NCBI RefSeq assembly: GCF_028281565.1 | Contig: NZ_JANQJQ010000005.1 | Location: forward strand, 1 to 64,000 | Direction of reading: 5' to 3' | Source of the DNA: Seonamhaeicola sp. | GTDB lineage: Bacteria > Bacteroidota > Bacteroidia > Flavobacteriales > Flavobacteriaceae | DNA: 64,000 nt | Part shown: positions 45,457 to 57,821 of the stretch, piece by piece | Numbering within the stretch: position 1 is the first letter of the stretch | Layout of the letters: every line of letters starts with the position of its first letter | Notes under the pieces: generated by a model | Databases searched by the model: none | Seen by the model: the letters and a program-made list of their open reading frames with translations, nothing else | What the model was told of the DNA's origin: nothing | Translations under genes and position numbers: made by a program

Positions 45457-46593
45457 ATGAACATAGGAATTGTTTGTTATCCTACATTTGGTGGTAGTGG
45501 CGTTGTGGCTACAGAGCTTGGTTTGGAACTTTCTAAACGTGGCCATGAGATTCATTTCATCACATATCGGCAACCGGTGCGTTTGGAATTGATAAGTAAC
45601 AATGTGCATTATCACGAGGTGAATGTACCGGAATATCCGCTGTTTCATTATCAGCCTTATGAGTTGGCATTATCAAGCAAATTGGTTGATATGGTGAAAC
45701 TTCATAACATTGAAATTTTACATGTACATTATGCTATTCCACATGCTTATGCGGCTTATATGGCAAAAAAGATGTTGATGGAAGAGGGGATCCATGTACC
45801 TATTGTTACTACCCTTCACGGGACCGATATTACTTTAGTGGGGAGCCATCCGTTCTATAAACCGGCTGTCACATTCAGTATTAATAAATCGGATGCCGTA
45901 ACTGCAGTTTCTAAAAGCTTGAAAGATGATACTTTACGTTTATTTAATGTAAAGAATGAGATACACGTAGTTCCTAATTTTATCGATTTAGATAAATATA
46001 ATTATCAGTTTACGGATTGTCAACGGGGTATGATGGCAGAAGATAATGAAAAGATCATCACCCACATCAGTAATTTAAGGCCTGTAAAACGGGTTCAGGA
46101 TGTTATAAGTGTATTTTATAATGTTCAAAAAGAAATGCCTGCTAAATTGATGTTCATTGGTGAGGGACCTGAAAAAGAAAATGTGGAGAAACGTTGTATA
46201 GAATTGGGGATTATAGATAAGGTCATTTTCTTTGGAAGAAGTAATGAAATTGATAAGATCCTTTGCTTCAGTGATTTATTCTTGTTACCATCACGTACCG
46301 AAAGTTTTGGTCTGGCTGCTCTGGAAGCCATGGCATCCCGTGTGCCGGTGATTTCCAGTAATACAGGCGGGATTCCGGAAGTCAATGTTCACGGTTATTC
46401 CGGCTTTTTAAGTCATGTAGGCGATGTGGAGGATATGACCAAAAATGCCCTTCATATTTTAAGTGATGCCAAAAGATTGAAAGCTTTTAAAGATAACGCG
46501 AGGGAACAATCTTTAAAGTTTGACCTACATGAAATAGTACCACAATACGAAGCCATTTACGAAGATACGTTGACCAAGTGTTTGGTGTTGTAA
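45457..46593 (+). CDS. bshA: N-acetyl-alpha-D-glucosaminyl L-malate synthase (bacillithiol)
   Basis: A 378-residue GT4 glycosyltransferase joining UDP-N-acetylglucosamine to L-malate, the first step of bacillithiol synthesis. The N-terminus MNIGIVCYPTFGGSGVVATE is typical of BshA; HVHYAIPHA, TLHGTDITLVG and the C-terminal donor-binding LLPSRTESFGLAALEAMA follow. bshB and bshC are not in this window. A GshB-like ligase at 53.1 kb might suggest a second thiol, but it is probably something else (see findings). Confidence 0.95.
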   Translation: MNIGIVCYPTFGGSGVVATELGLELSKRGHEIHFITYRQPVRLELISNNVHYHEVNVPEYPLFHYQPYELALSSKLVDMVKLHNIEILHVHYAIPHAYAAYMAKKMLMEEGIHVPIVTTLHGTDITLVGSHPFYKPAVTFSINKSDAVTAVSKSLKDDTLRLFNVKNEIHVVPNFIDLDKYNYQFTDCQRGMMAEDNEKIITHISNLRPVKRVQDVISVFYNVQKEMPAKLMFIGEGPEKENVEKRCIELGIIDKVIFFGRSNEIDKILCFSDLFLLPSRTESFGLAALEAMASRVPVISSNTGGIPEVNVHGYSGFLSHVGDVEDMTKNALHILSDAKRLKAFKDNAREQSLKFDLHEIVPQYEAIYEDTLTKCLVL

Positions 46594-53101: not shown

Positions 53102-54139
53102 ATGAATGTTTGTTTTTTAATGTATCCCTGGGAAAATATTGACCCGGATAATGATACTACCCTGGCGCTTATAAAAGAATGTGTAAAGCGCAAGCATGGG
53201 GTTGCCATGTGTATTCCGGCAGATTTAACTATCAGAAATAGTGTTACTACGGCTAATTGTTCGGTAATTAACCGTATGGAAAAAACACCTGCTTCCTTAA
53301 AATCGTTTTATAACAAGGTAACGTTGCGTAAGGAAATGCTGCCGTTAGCAGGGTTTGATGTGATCTTCTTCAGGGCCAATCCGCCGTTAGACCCTATCAT
53401 GCTTAACTTTTTAGATTCTGTAAAAGATGATGTGTTTATTATGAATTCTTTGGAAGGGATGCGGGAAGCTAATAACAAACTATATACCGCAGCATTTGGA
53501 GATGCACATAGTAACATTATTCCGGCTACACACGTATCAAAAAGTAAAAACTATTTGATCAGGCAGATCAAGGAATCAAAATCGGATAAGATGATCTTGA
53601 AACCACTTAACGGATTTGGAGGTTCGGGGGTTATTCTTATAGAAAAATCGGCGATGAGTAATATCCAGTCTTTACTGGATTTTTATATTACCAATAGAGA
53701 CGGGTCTTCAAATTATGTGATTCTTCAGGATTATATTGAAGGGGCCGATAAAGGCGATGTTCGGATTTTAATATTGAATGGCGAACCGGTTGGAGCTATG
53801 AAGCGCGTTCCGGGAAGTGATGATCACAGATCCAATGTATCGGCGGGAGGAAGTGTGCAAAAGCATAGTTTAACAAGGGAAGAAAAAGCGCTTTGTAAAC
53901 AAATAGGACCAAAACTGGTGAATGACGGACTTTATTTTGTGGGTATTGATGTTATTGGAGGAAAATTAGTTGAGGTAAATGTCATGTCCCCCGGTGGCAT
54001 TACCTATATTAATAAAGTATATAAGTTAAAAATCAAAATAGAAGAGAAAGTCATTGATTTTCTCGAGATGAAAGTGCTTGATAAGCTTCAGGCTTTTGAC
54101 CGACGTCAAAGATTAAGAAAAGCAGTAGAGGATGCGTAA
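53102..54139 (+). CDS. GshB-like ATP-grasp ligase
   Basis: A 345-residue ATP-grasp enzyme of the glutathione-synthetase GshB type: N-terminal domain with DVIFFRANPPLDP, glycine-rich ATP loop KPLNGFGGSGVILIEK, lid region VILQDYIEGADKGDVRILIL, GSDDHRSNVSAGG and the Mg-binding end EVNVMSPGGITY. It forms amide bonds between a carboxylate and an amine. No gamma-glutamylcysteine ligase is in the window, and bacillithiol synthesis is present, so the product may not be glutathione. It heads a plus-strand operon ending with a QEGLA metallopeptidase. Confidence 0.9.
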   Translation: MNVCFLMYPWENIDPDNDTTLALIKECVKRKHGVAMCIPADLTIRNSVTTANCSVINRMEKTPASLKSFYNKVTLRKEMLPLAGFDVIFFRANPPLDPIMLNFLDSVKDDVFIMNSLEGMREANNKLYTAAFGDAHSNIIPATHVSKSKNYLIRQIKESKSDKMILKPLNGFGGSGVILIEKSAMSNIQSLLDFYITNRDGSSNYVILQDYIEGADKGDVRILILNGEPVGAMKRVPGSDDHRSNVSAGGSVQKHSLTREEKALCKQIGPKLVNDGLYFVGIDVIGGKLVEVNVMSPGGITYINKVYKLKIKIEEKVIDFLEMKVLDKLQAFDRRQRLRKAVEDA

Positions 54140-54152
54140 AATTTAATAAAGA

Positions 54153-54662
54153 ATGATGAAAAAATTATTGCTGTTATTAGTTTGTGTAAACGTATTTTTA
54201 TTTTCATGCCAGGAGAAAGCCAGTTCACCCAAATCTGAATTATTGGAAATTATAAAAAAACTAAGAACTGATGAAGACCATGAGTTTCTGATGACTTTAA
54301 GGCCAACAGATTCTGATTTATATGAAATTTTCAGGGATAGTATGTATACCGAAAGAGCAATTGAGTATTCAAATAAGGTATGGAATGGGATTGATAAGAT
54401 TCCTGCTAATGCTTTAGGGCCAGTGAATGAAGATGATATTCCTGTTGCGGTATCAGCAACTCAGGATCAGCTTTTGGAGTGGTCACAAACCGATTTATCT
54501 ATGGATTACATCATGCTATGTGAATTTTTAAAAGCAGATGTGGTTATTTATGGGATGCAATATGTAGATAAGAAAGGTATGGGAACCAAATCCAGAGGCG
54601 CCTTTTTTAGAGTTGATGAAAAATGGATTTTTGTTCCTCAGTTGTTTAGGGCGTTTCTTTAG
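54153..54662 (+). CDS. Small lipoprotein within the ATP-grasp operon
   Basis: Not recognised. The 169-residue product has a lipoprotein signal (LVCVNVFLFSCQEK) and a mostly helical body with several Trp residues; no known domain was identified. It lies 13 bases after the ATP-grasp gene and 11 bases before the rhodanese fusion gene, on the same strand. Confidence 0.78.
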   Translation: MMKKLLLLLVCVNVFLFSCQEKASSPKSELLEIIKKLRTDEDHEFLMTLRPTDSDLYEIFRDSMYTERAIEYSNKVWNGIDKIPANALGPVNEDDIPVAVSATQDQLLEWSQTDLSMDYIMLCEFLKADVVIYGMQYVDKKGMGTKSRGAFFRVDEKWIFVPQLFRAFL

Positions 54663-54673
54663 AAAATAAAATA

Positions 54674-55834
54674 ATGGCTCAAGTTTCATTAGATAAACCT
54701 ATAGTATCAGTAGATTGGCTTCATAAGAACTTAGAGGCCGAAAATCTTGTGGTTTTAGATGGTACCATCAGCAAGTCTTTTGACGCGGGGCTACAACAAA
54801 TTCCAAACGCACGGTTTTTTGATATAAAAAATAAGTTCAGTGATACTTCCGGGGCGTTTCCAAATACATTTCCATCAGTGGCACAATTTCAGAGTGAAGC
54901 CAGGGACTTAGGCATCAATAATGATAGCTATATTGTGGTTTATGATGATAAAGGTCTTTATTCCAGTGCTCGTGTTTGGTGGTTGTTCAAAGCTTTTGGG
55001 TATGATAATGTAGCGGTTTTAGATGGTGGCTTTCCGGAATGGTTGCAAGCAGGCTATCCAACCGAACCCATGACTGCTTACCAGGGAGATAAAGGCAATT
55101 TTAAAGCCGATATTCAGCAGGAATACATGAGGTTTTATGAAGACCTGAAAGAAGCTTCCAAAGCTAAAACCCATGCCATTGTTGATGCACGCTCTGGTGA
55201 ACGATTCCATGGCAAGGTTCCGGAGCCCAGAGCAGGATTAAGAAGCGGCAACATTCCAAATTCGGTGAATTTACCTTATACGGAATTGTTGGAAAACGGC
55301 TTGCTAAAGCATGAAGGTGACCTTCAAGTGATTTTTTCAAATACTCTTACTACCAAATCCGATCCCGTAATTTTTTCATGTGGTTCGGGTATCACGGCCT
55401 GTATTTTAGCTTTGGGAGCTGAGATTTCAGGCTATAACAATATAGCGGTCTACGACGGTTCATGGACCGAATGGGGAACCTTAGATCCGGGTACCATGGA
55501 AGATCCGGATGAATGGACTAAAGATCAATTGTTAGCTTACATCTTGATTTACGTGTCAAATTCAGATTTAAAAGAATCCTGGAAGGAGCGTGAATACATT
55601 CTAAGCAGAGTTGATAAAAAGGTGTATCAGCAGATGCATGACCGGTTTGATGCCGATAGTGATTATCAGAGTATTCAAAATATTATTAAAGCGGTTAGAG
55701 CACACGATTATTACAGGAACGATTTTGCAGATTTGTTTGCAGATATTAAACTCATGGCCTTTGCCGACGGCAGTTTGCACCAAATGGAGCAAATGGTCTA
55801 TAGTCAATTACGTAAGATCTTAATAGATGGATAG
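54674..55834 (+). CDS. Two-domain rhodanese sulfurtransferase fused to a TerB-like helical domain
   Basis: A 386-residue protein. Residues about 10-130 form an inactive first rhodanese domain (VVYDDKGLYSSARVWWLFKA), and 160-272 an active second one with the catalytic Cys236 in FSCGSGITA. This would be a normal thiosulfate/3-mercaptopyruvate sulfurtransferase of about 275 residues, but the frame continues without a stop into a ~110-residue helical domain (MEDPDEWTKDQLLAYILIYV, LMAFADGSLHQMEQMVYSQL) resembling small TerB-family proteins. The junction Met275 (ATG at 55496) may be a former or still active internal start. Its stop overlaps the next gene by 8 bases. Confidence 0.87.
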   Translation: MAQVSLDKPIVSVDWLHKNLEAENLVVLDGTISKSFDAGLQQIPNARFFDIKNKFSDTSGAFPNTFPSVAQFQSEARDLGINNDSYIVVYDDKGLYSSARVWWLFKAFGYDNVAVLDGGFPEWLQAGYPTEPMTAYQGDKGNFKADIQQEYMRFYEDLKEASKAKTHAIVDARSGERFHGKVPEPRAGLRSGNIPNSVNLPYTELLENGLLKHEGDLQVIFSNTLTTKSDPVIFSCGSGITACILALGAEISGYNNIAVYDGSWTEWGTLDPGTMEDPDEWTKDQLLAYILIYVSNSDLKESWKEREYILSRVDKKVYQQMHDRFDADSDYQSIQNIIKAVRAHDYYRNDFADLFADIKLMAFADGSLHQMEQMVYSQLRKILIDG

Positions 55835-56657
55835 ATTAACCCTTACCCAGATCATTTCTAAAATTGAAAACGAAGAAACTTTTGAGGCTGTATCATTGGA
55901 TTACAGTTTTACTATTAAGATTGATACGTACGTGCCTTATGCCTGTGCTGCCATCCATAACGGCCACCAGTTTAGAAAAGAATTATGGGACAATTGCTTG
56001 CATACTGAGTTTGAGCGATGGTACGAAGAAGACCCGGAAACCAAAACGATGGTAGCTTCACATCCTATTGTTATTGCCGGTTGTGATTCCCGTTTTGAAT
56101 ATGATCTAAACCGTTCACCGGAAGAAGCGGTTTTTGTTACTGCCTGGGGCAAACAATTATGGGAGGCACCCCTTTCCGAAGCCATGAAAAGTAAAAGCCT
56201 TCAAAAACATATCAATTTTTATAAAGTGACGCATACTTTAATTGAAACCTTAGAACGAAAATTTGGATTCTGTACGGTTTATGATATGCATAGTTATAAC
56301 TGGCAGCGTTGGGATAGGGAAGTGCCTACGTGGAATTTAGGAACCAGCAATTTGGATAACAAGAGGTTTGGAAAAGTGATAGAAGACTGGCGACAAAGCT
56401 TATCAGAGATCAGGCTTCCTAATGGTATAAAATCGACTTCAAAAGTCAATGATACTTTTTTCGGAAATGGCTTTTTTTTAAAATATATCACAAAGAATTT
56501 TAAAAATACCTTAGTTTTGGCAACTGAAATAGCTAAAGTGTATTGTGACGAATACGAACAGGTTATCTTTCCCGAAGTGGTTAACGCTGTTGAACAGGAA
56601 TTGAAAACCCGTATACCTAAGCACGCACTGGATGTATACAAAGCTTTTAAAGGATAG
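55827..56657 (+). CDS. N-formylglutamate amidohydrolase-like protein
   Basis: A 276-residue protein of the FGase family (zinc-dependent, carboxypeptidase-like fold). Visible segments: VPYACAAIHNGHQFRKEL (a variant of the PHSG zinc site), FEYDLNRSPEEA, CTVYDMHSYNWQRW and LVLATEIAKVYCDE. Classical FGase frees glutamate from N-formylglutamate in histidine breakdown; no hut genes are present, so a different amide substrate is likely. The start overlaps the rhodanese gene by 8 bases and the stop is 3 bases before the QEGLA gene, indicating coupled translation. Confidence 0.9.
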   Translation: MDRLTLTQIISKIENEETFEAVSLDYSFTIKIDTYVPYACAAIHNGHQFRKELWDNCLHTEFERWYEEDPETKTMVASHPIVIAGCDSRFEYDLNRSPEEAVFVTAWGKQLWEAPLSEAMKSKSLQKHINFYKVTHTLIETLERKFGFCTVYDMHSYNWQRWDREVPTWNLGTSNLDNKRFGKVIEDWRQSLSEIRLPNGIKSTSKVNDTFFGNGFFLKYITKNFKNTLVLATEIAKVYCDEYEQVIFPEVVNAVEQELKTRIPKHALDVYKAFKG

Positions 56658-56660
56658 TTT

Positions 56661-57821
56661 ATGAAGGTTGAGAACAATGTAGCTACTAAAGCACTTTTGG
56701 AAATAGATCATAATATTGATGAGCTGGTTAAGCAAATTGAATTGCTTAGCTATGTGAATCCTACTAATATTGAAGAAGAAAAAAAACGTTTTTTTTCATC
56801 CAAGTATTTAACCGATCCTGTATTTCAGTATCCTACCATTAATTTCGACCGGTTTAAACTTCACAGAAAGCTTTTTGAAAACAATTTGGAGTGCATTGAA
56901 GACGAGCAGATCAGGAAATTGTATGAAGATATTATTTATCAATATTCTGGTTTGATCCAATGTATTGAGACCATTGGAAGCGGTAAGAAGTTTTACTACA
57001 ATTGTTTGCACTGTTTTGGAACTCCTACAGAGCGCGACGTTGAAAATGCCAAGTTTATTTTGCATTTTGAGGAAGAGCCTAAAGACCTAGGTATTTTTGA
57101 ACCAAAGTATAAAGCCAAAGAAGCTATATCCTTTTTTGAAGCTTATTCGGAACAATACGGCTTTGAGTACAATATTACCCAGTCTGATAAAATTTCAGCC
57201 ATTGCTATGGTCCTGAATAATATTAAGACCTTAGTATTGAACTCCAATTATACATTTTCAGATAATGAAATAGCAGTATTGACCAACCATGAAATAGGGG
57301 TTCATATGGTGACCACCATGAACGGGTTGCTGCATCCTTTAAAGATATTTTCGCATGGCTTCCCTAATAACGAAGAAACCCAGGAAGGTCTAGCAGTATT
57401 TGCCGAATATATGAGTAATAACCTTACCGTAAAACGTTTAAAGGAATTAGCGTATCGTGTTATAGCGGTGGATAGTTTGGCCAAAGGGTATTCGTTTTCA
57501 AAAACGTTCAGGTTACTTCATAATCAATATGACCTGGATAGGGAAAAAGCATTTTTTATAACCTTAAGAGTACACCGTGGAGGCGGGTTTACCAAAGATT
57601 ACCTGTATTTAACCGGTTTAAAAAAGATTTACGACTACTATCATCAGGGAAAAGATTTAACTCTGTTACTAACCGGAAAAGTAACTTTAGAATATGCCGA
57701 AGACATAGAAGCTCTTATGAAAAAGGGATTGGCAGTGCCTGCAAAATATATCACCGATGCATATACCGAGAATAGCAACACTGATAAAACCGTGGAGTTT
57801 ATTTTAAGAAGTTTAAAATAA
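56661..57821 (+). CDS. QEGLA-motif (DUF1704) metallopeptidase-like protein
   Basis: A 386-residue protein of the DUF1704/TIGR02421 group, called flavohemoglobin expression-modulating QEGLA protein in databases. The zinc site is an HExxxH motif (TNHEIGVHM, His210-Glu211-His215) with a third ligand Glu242 in TQEGLAVFAEY. Human members of the DUF1704 family include the tubulin tyrosine carboxypeptidase MATCAP, so carboxypeptidase activity is plausible. It closes the operon that starts with the ATP-grasp gene and is convergent with a barrel protein gene, overlapping it by 9 bases. Confidence 0.92.
   Translation: MKVENNVATKALLEIDHNIDELVKQIELLSYVNPTNIEEEKKRFFSSKYLTDPVFQYPTINFDRFKLHRKLFENNLECIEDEQIRKLYEDIIYQYSGLIQCIETIGSGKKFYYNCLHCFGTPTERDVENAKFILHFEEEPKDLGIFEPKYKAKEAISFFEAYSEQYGFEYNITQSDKISAIAMVLNNIKTLVLNSNYTFSDNEIAVLTNHEIGVHMVTTMNGLLHPLKIFSHGFPNNEETQEGLAVFAEYMSNNLTVKRLKELAYRVIAVDSLAKGYSFSKTFRLLHNQYDLDREKAFFITLRVHRGGGFTKDYLYLTGLKKIYDYYHQGKDLTLLLTGKVTLEYAEDIEALMKKGLAVPAKYITDAYTENSNTDKTVEFILRSLK

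Follow-up and report, generated by a model that had tools for sequence, protein, structure and literature searches.

A recurrent bacterial association of a GshB-like ATP-grasp ligase with FGase and QEGLA hydrolases, a candidate add/remove system

A five-gene operon of Seonamhaeicola sp., encoded on the plus strand of the 64,000-nucleotide stretch analysed here (contig NZ_JANQJQ010000005.1, positions 1 to 64,000; hereafter the window), combines a GshB-like ATP-grasp ligase with two hydrolases, one related to N-formylglutamate amidohydrolase (FGase) and one belonging to the QEGLA metallopeptidases, the family of MATCAP (DUF1704). The association of these three genes is real and recurrent, and it extends beyond close relatives. 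The FGase and QEGLA proteins most plausibly make up a single two-domain metallohydrolase, each supplying one half, and, by analogy with RimK/RimB and with the tubulin enzymes TTL and MATCAP, we regard it as an even proposition that the three modules form a system in which ligase and hydrolase oppose one another. An original prediction made from this DNA alone, that the operon adds an amino acid to a peptide or metabolite and removes it again, is partly supported: the ligase-peptidase association is conserved, while the proposed five-gene core shrinks to three genes and tyrosine finds no backing as the residue concerned.

The operon itself is confirmed as described, with five plus-strand genes separated by gaps of 13, 11, -8 and 3 bases according to their open reading frames, and with family identities that Pfam bears out. 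The ligase (53102..54139, 345 aa) matches PF02955/PF02951, with scores of 183.9 bits for GSH-S_ATP and 81.5 bits for GSH-S_N. The FGase half (55827..56657, 276 aa) scores 41.3 bits against PF05013 (gathering cut-off 28.9), and the QEGLA half (56661..57821, 386 aa) 328.3 bits against PF08014 (gathering cut-off 27), with HExxxH at residues 210-215 and QEG at 241-243. The host genome (5.27 Mb in 48 contigs, listed as 100% complete) contains a single MATCAP gene.

Linkage of the three genes was surveyed in 149 Flavobacteriaceae genomes from 149 genera, 77 of which hold the 88 PF08014 genes found; by open frame these fall into a short class (<500 aa, n=65) and a long class (~610-650 aa, n=23). For 59 of the 65 short QEGLA genes, ligase, FGase and QEGLA follow one another in this order on the same strand within 5 kb; one of the remainder has an FGase alone beside it and five have neither gene. 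Behind all 23 long QEGLA genes, within 5 kb, lies a GshB-like ligase of a second type, designated clade B below. The converse also holds: ligase matches were listed down to ~75 bits, with all of those at 130 bits or above included, and the 84 that score at least 130 bits fall in 73 genomes, every one of which carries QEGLA (73/73). FGases near QEGLA score 41.5-59.1 bits and ten high-scoring FGases 204-233, and FGases linked to GCS2 genes (see below) overlap the former at 47-82. This adjacency is far beyond chance, though the genomes of one family are relatives and not independent samples. The best 80 loci by QEGLA, all from Flavobacteriaceae or unplaced Bacteroidota, tell the same story, with all three genes on one strand in 74. 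Among the exceptions, three are truncated by contig ends (L049, L062, L091), one keeps 2.4 kb upstream of its FGase (L059), and two from Arenibacter (L090, L099) are without ligase and FGase. The highest QEGLA identities (80-85%, in a list that may omit very near genomes) belong to Flavobacteriaceae such as Flaviramulus, Algibacter and Seonamhaeicola, which we take to be marine.

The linkage recurs outside this family. PF08014 occurs in 10 of 148 genomes sampled across the phylum and in 10 of 295 across the class, and the class survey includes seven Bacteroidia outside Flavobacteriaceae that encode QEGLA. Two of these carry a ligase with an FGase::QEGLA fusion (L013, L147), in one the fusion stands where its contig begins (L148), two show the order FGase, long QEGLA, ligase (L016, L018), one has long QEGLA followed by ligase (L149), and one has QEGLA alone (L146). 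Our proteobacterial evidence comes from nine QEGLA places opened in a plasmid collection in which 124-127 records matched. There the order FGase, long QEGLA, ligase is found in Aminobacter, Shinella, Sinorhizobium meliloti pSymB, Pararhizobium and a Roseateles record of unverified organism; two Photobacterium plasmids encode a ligase and then an FGase::QEGLA fusion, and Pseudoalteromonas has a lone QEGLA that is more distant in sequence. In all, FGase and QEGLA are fused in six proteins from Bacteroidia, Photobacterium and Vibrio (L013, L101, L102, L109, L147, L148). Because ligase and peptidase genes remain associated in different phyla, with linkage in alphaproteobacteria, gammaproteobacteria and other Bacteroidia, the pairing is not confined to close relatives, the outcome that had been named beforehand as telling against the prediction. 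A search for viral copies gave 51 pattern matches, with no relatives among them.

Gene spacing and phylogeny both bear on the view of FGase and QEGLA as one enzyme. Counted from the first start codon, no more than 30 bases separate the two genes in 60 of 78 split pairs, and in the QEGLA tree the split forms of Flavobacteriaceae are nested among fused ones. This topology suggests an ancestral FGase-QEGLA fusion that was split later, with support at the key forks (86/73 and 87/83) that is not firm. Both halves keep their putative active sites. FGase residues H44, D69, S88, R89, D93, N95, R96, D153, H155, N158 and E234, which we take to include those that hold metal, are identical in 91 of 91 sequences of both types. 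Up to E 0.001 the window FGase matches no NCBIfam model, the HutG equivalog TIGR02017 included; the S. meliloti FGase scores 22.1 bits against that model (cut-off 278.75), and an FGase profile searched against the sequences of solved structures found nothing at E 0.1. In QEGLA, HExGxH, QEG, GGG and KD are invariant; HExxxH and QEG are kept throughout ten aligned relatives (the L of QEGLA becoming I in two), and HExxxH and the QEG glutamate also persist in alignments of 25 and 29 members. Against TIGR02421 (cut-off 338.65) the window protein falls short at 321.7, and those of S. meliloti (353.1) and Photobacterium (459.9) exceed it. Homology to MATCAP, motifs included, was correctly called at the outset: besides its Pfam score, the window QEGLA matches the human KIAA0895L structure 7z5g at E 8.2e-6 as a single sequence and E 7.8e-16 as a profile, and at E 0.1 the only solved relatives of the profile are two distinct human KIAA0895L sequences. 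Human QEGLA homologues act on tubulin tails by detyrosination and deglutamylation (PMC10499314).

Long QEGLA proteins carry an additional N-terminal region of ~245 residues that matches no convincing Pfam family, seven families each matching one of 22 members. When this region was compared with pooled FGases by hhalign, the two runs returned 85.9% and 89.8% (P 5.3e-6 and 1.8e-6), against 0.1-1.9% for eight controls. We hold with moderate confidence, from profile comparison, that it is a remote FGase-like domain; our confidence goes no higher because weaker runs gave 13.4% against another FGase alignment (A3) and 8.9% against seven type-B FGases alone. In the one long-QEGLA row displayed, FGase H44 faces a gap and H155 a tryptophan, and across 32 aligned N-terminal domains there is one majority histidine column (20/32). 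Given the lost equivalents of H44 and H155 and this single column, the domain is probably a non-catalytic relic.

The ligase is homologous to the GshB of structure 1gsa (E 8.2e-38 by sequence search), which raises the question of whether it is a glutathione synthase. It scores 234.6 bits against the GshB equivalog TIGR01380, under the cut-off of 299.05, as do the cassette ligases of S. meliloti (207.1) and Photobacterium (244.4), whereas a canonical Sinorhizobium GshB reaches 415.5. It passes NF009110 (453.7 bits, cut-off 408). We aligned 81 ligases of the window type (clade A: 80 loci plus the window), 32 of clade B and six canonical GshB sequences. Residues K160, D273, E281 and N283 (E. coli numbering) are conserved in all clade A (81/81) and clade B (32/32) members, and R210, R225, R233, D273, E281 and N283 in 81 of 81 of clade A; we assume for these their usual ATP-grasp catalytic roles. 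The loop at E. coli positions 288-294 is different. Canonical enzymes read T-[CG]-[IV]-[RQV], the clade A consensus is G-G-I-T-Y-I-N with G288, T291 and N294 invariant (81/81), and clade B has G-[GA]-[LIM], so that the canonical consensus SPT[CG][IV] becomes SPGGITYIN in window-type ligases. In the ligase tree canonical GshB (six rows, 100/96), clade A (93/99) and a third group (97/90) separate, in an analysis with few canonical rows and with RimK and Gordonia as long branches that drew a program warning; NCBIfam scores divide the ligases as the tree does, save for NF003573, taken up below. The host genome matches neither PF04107 nor PF04262, two gamma-glutamylcysteine ligase families, as had been noted from the window, and both are missing from 59 of 73 cassette genomes (GCS2 is present in 14, high-scoring in five). 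Sinorhizobium sp. C101 possesses a canonical GshB (415.5 bits, TIGR01380) as well as a long QEGLA that shares 93% identity with its S. meliloti counterpart. Because it scores below TIGR01380, belongs to a separate clade with an altered loop and occurs in a genome without a gamma-glutamylcysteine ligase match, the window ligase is probably not a glutathione synthase, a view that the NF003573 score qualifies, and we reject canonical glutathione synthesis. These data also suggest that "glutathione synthase" genes of the NF009110 type may be misnamed, both where the bacterium lacks gamma-glutamylcysteine ligase and where rhizobia carry them as additional copies.

We propose that the GshB-like enzyme would activate a carboxylate with ATP and join an amino acid to it, and that FGase and QEGLA together would release that residue by hydrolysing an amide beside a free C-terminal carboxylate. 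Candidate acceptors are peptides, protein C-termini and small molecules, and the opposed pair would work in the cytoplasm, its presumed location, under osmotic control. The direction of reaction, the opposition and the substrates are inferred; the add/remove reading starts from the chemistry of FGase and MATCAP, each of which cleaves just ahead of a free carboxylate, at the type of bond that ATP-grasp ligases form. FGases release glutamate from N-formylglutamate, and glutamate is our best single guess for the residue. In a bolder version, which we consider distinctly unlikely as a whole, the set would be a bacterial system for reversible C-terminal tagging, in which proteins or peptides receive a residue, probably glutamate, from a ligase derived from GshB, the FGase-MATCAP enzyme removes it, and osmolarity switches the cycle alongside RimK. 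Were this true, the animal tubulin-trimming enzymes would be descendants of the removal arm of a bacterial tagging cycle. Bacterial QEGLA (DUF1704) proteins have so far had a placeholder name only, and their ligase partner, FGase fusion and salt link allow a concrete test of the role of the family outside tubulin biology.

Several known systems resemble this set. TTL, a member of the ATP-grasp superfamily, is countered in the tubulin cycle by a PF08014 carboxypeptidase, MATCAP (TMCP); our set differs in being bacterial, in its operon arrangement, in its FGase partner and in having a GshB-type rather than a TTL-type ligase. GshB itself (TIGR01380) shares the family fold, judged by sequence, and the ATP-grasp residues, and differs in the loop and clade described above. 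A set of RLAN ATP-grasp, GCS2 and FGase genes (L151) likewise places an amide ligase beside an FGase, but with other ligases and no QEGLA, and GCS2 lies within 10 kb of a same-strand QEGLA in none of 27 cases. The 2009 amidoligase survey of Iyer et al., which is said to have predicted many ATP-grasp/peptidase systems, the RLAN, GCS2 and FGase kind among them, fell outside the literature that we searched, where we found no study of a bacterial ligase-FGase-QEGLA set and no mention of TIGR02421, PF08014, COG3930 or IPR012548, nor of DUF1704 among the matches listed, of which one mentions QEGLA. In Pseudomonas, an ATP-grasp ligase and a protease are likewise encoded in one operon by RimK/RimB, where the protease takes off what the ligase adds in S6 polyglutamylation (PMC11957791, PMC12239564); the window ligase scores 93.2 bits against the RimK family alpha-L-glutamate ligase model TIGR00768, under its cut-off of 143.4. 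RloA/RloB/RloC of Pseudomonas aeruginosa similarly joins an ATP-grasp protein to a protease and is linked to hypo-osmotic growth, but the secreted aspartic protease and membrane transglutaminase-like protein described for it are not part of our set (PMC12239564).

Osmotic control is suggested by RNA-seq of Photobacterium damselae RM-71 grown at 1% versus 3% NaCl (PMC10308900). In the reported comparison, the QEGLA gene A0J47_RS17025 is 27.51-fold higher at 1% NaCl, its neighbour by tag RS17020 38.42-fold, RS17005 18.64-fold and the RimK gene RS00405 52.24-fold; the authors treat RS17020 as the glutathione synthetase GshB. Judging from the adjacent tags and from the gene order on the two Photobacterium plasmids, RS17020 and RS17025 would be the ligase-fusion pair.

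A number of observations weigh against an opposed ligase and hydrolase. The salt response comes from one strain in which 1,808 genes changed (PMC10308900), and the pair in it was identified by locus tag, not by sequence. The window ligase narrowly passes NF003573 (PRK05246; 277.8 versus 272), as does that of Photobacterium (291.7), while the S. meliloti cassette member falls below it (213.7). An FGase lies within 5 kb of just two of the 23 long QEGLA genes, with none found beside the other 21. One of the 84 ligase matches, in genome G223 (192 bits), stands away from any QEGLA, and a "glutathione synthetase" so annotated in Ensifer adhaerens has no QEGLA or FGase annotated within 6 kb. QEGLA can in turn exist apart from the ligase, since seven short QEGLA genes (L139-L143, L090, L099) sit beside a symporter without ligase or FGase, and a third type of ~425 aa stands alone (L107:6332-7612, L146:6931-8205), placed by the tree outside both ligase-linked clades on long branches. 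Vibrio HDW18 (L101) carries the FGase::QEGLA fusion without an adjoining ligase. Ligase and hydrolase might also act successively in one biosynthetic path, and we know of no member of a bacterial QEGLA set whose activity has been established.

The most serious alternative to an opposed pair, one that we judge unlikely but take seriously, is that the ligase makes a small-peptide metabolite, such as one that is acidic or has an osmotic role, which both hydrolases then shorten, recycle or break down, with no protein being modified. GshB-type enzymes produce small peptides, and a GltP/DctA-like symporter (271.6 bits against the GltP model, below its cut-off of 638) lies upstream of QEGLA in 67 of 98 neighbourhoods (97 loci plus the window) and in five of five lone short loci (L139-L143). 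The salt-dependent expression in Photobacterium (PMC10308900) would fit a metabolite of this kind, as would the separate GCS2 and FGase ligase set of Flavobacteriaceae, in which low-scoring GCS2 genes adjoin an FGase in 16 of 16 cases (L151 and 15 other places, with neighbours typed for L151 alone). However, the window lacks the symporter, the proteobacterial sets yielded none, and its presence elsewhere may reflect no more than a shared aroC locus. To our knowledge, moreover, the only QEGLA homologues to have been studied act on protein tails.

A glutathione-like thiol pathway, in which the ligase and the operon's sulfurtransferase serve to produce or consume a thiol peptide, is improbable. 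The GshB homology and the NF003573 score speak for it, as does a rhodanese of the 3-mercaptopyruvate sulfurtransferase type in 52 of the 80 relatives. It is opposed by the missing gamma-glutamylcysteine ligases noted above, by the canonical GshB that Sinorhizobium sp. C101 has in addition to its long QEGLA, and by the bacillithiol gene bshA, already recognised in the window (45457-46593; TIGR03999 561.9 bits, cut-off 273.7); the fused loci and the eight proteobacterial sets that we examined also yielded no rhodanese. Graspetide loci do combine ATP-grasp enzymes with peptidases (PMC8939145), but maturation of a ribosomal peptide, with the ATP-grasp enzyme cyclising and the peptidase cutting, is very improbable: in a search of the 80 loci for open reading frames of 20-110 aa with common starts and recognised genes masked, the largest family reached 15 loci, lying 3' of QEGLA in the four members shown, and on this spread we disfavour a peptide precursor. 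Unmasked clusters reached up to 54 loci and lie, by position, mostly within the symporter region. Finally, although the aroC, thioesterase, symporter and lipoprotein genes beside the set may well share no more than a promoter with it, that the three modules do likewise and serve separate pathways is scarcely credible when they are linked in three classes and two phyla, in varied orders and with fusions; linkage in several lineages together with the fusions leads us to reject a chance neighbourhood.

The two remaining genes of the operon are local additions to a core of ligase, FGase and QEGLA. The second gene (54153..54662, plus strand) encodes a putative lipoprotein of 169 aa that has a lipobox-like LFSC near its start, judged by eye, and no Pfam or NCBIfam match; as a lineage-specific addition, it has homologues in three of the 80 relatives (L022, L048, L080). 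The third (54674..55834, plus strand) encodes an accessory double rhodanese resembling 3-mercaptopyruvate sulfurtransferase (Pfam Rhodanese 101.5 bits; NF008557 215.3 bits, under the cut-off of 250). Its motif, CGSGITA in the window, is kept as CG[ST]G[ILV]TA in 51 of 51 homologues. The eight proteobacterial sets that we examined yielded neither protein; the rhodanese was likewise not found in the fused loci examined, and on these grounds we reject it as a core part. The rhodanese protein bears an extra C-terminal domain for which no family match was identified; these last ~108 residues (window 55508-55834, start approximate) are homologous to a separate 108-aa gene at L017:7612-7938.

The extreme C-termini of the core proteins are conserved. 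The clade A ligase (ending at 54139 in the window) finishes in [DEN]A in 77 of 80 cases, the clade B ligase mostly in LATL or in ATM plus one residue, and short QEGLA in LK in 85 of 90; these termini occur in an operon that includes a homologue of a tail-cutting peptidase. Each of the seven short QEGLA genes without ligase (L139-L143, L090, L099) lies downstream of aroC and one or two GltP/DctA-like symporters. In Vibrio (L101:5690-6049) and Photobacterium (L102:4595-4999), a DUF413 (maoP) gene is found directly upstream of the set. The second amide-ligase set of Flavobacteriaceae (L151:3837-8184) comprises an RLAN/RimK-like ATP-grasp protein, a GCS2-like ligase, an FGase of ~230 aa and a Na/Ca exchanger.

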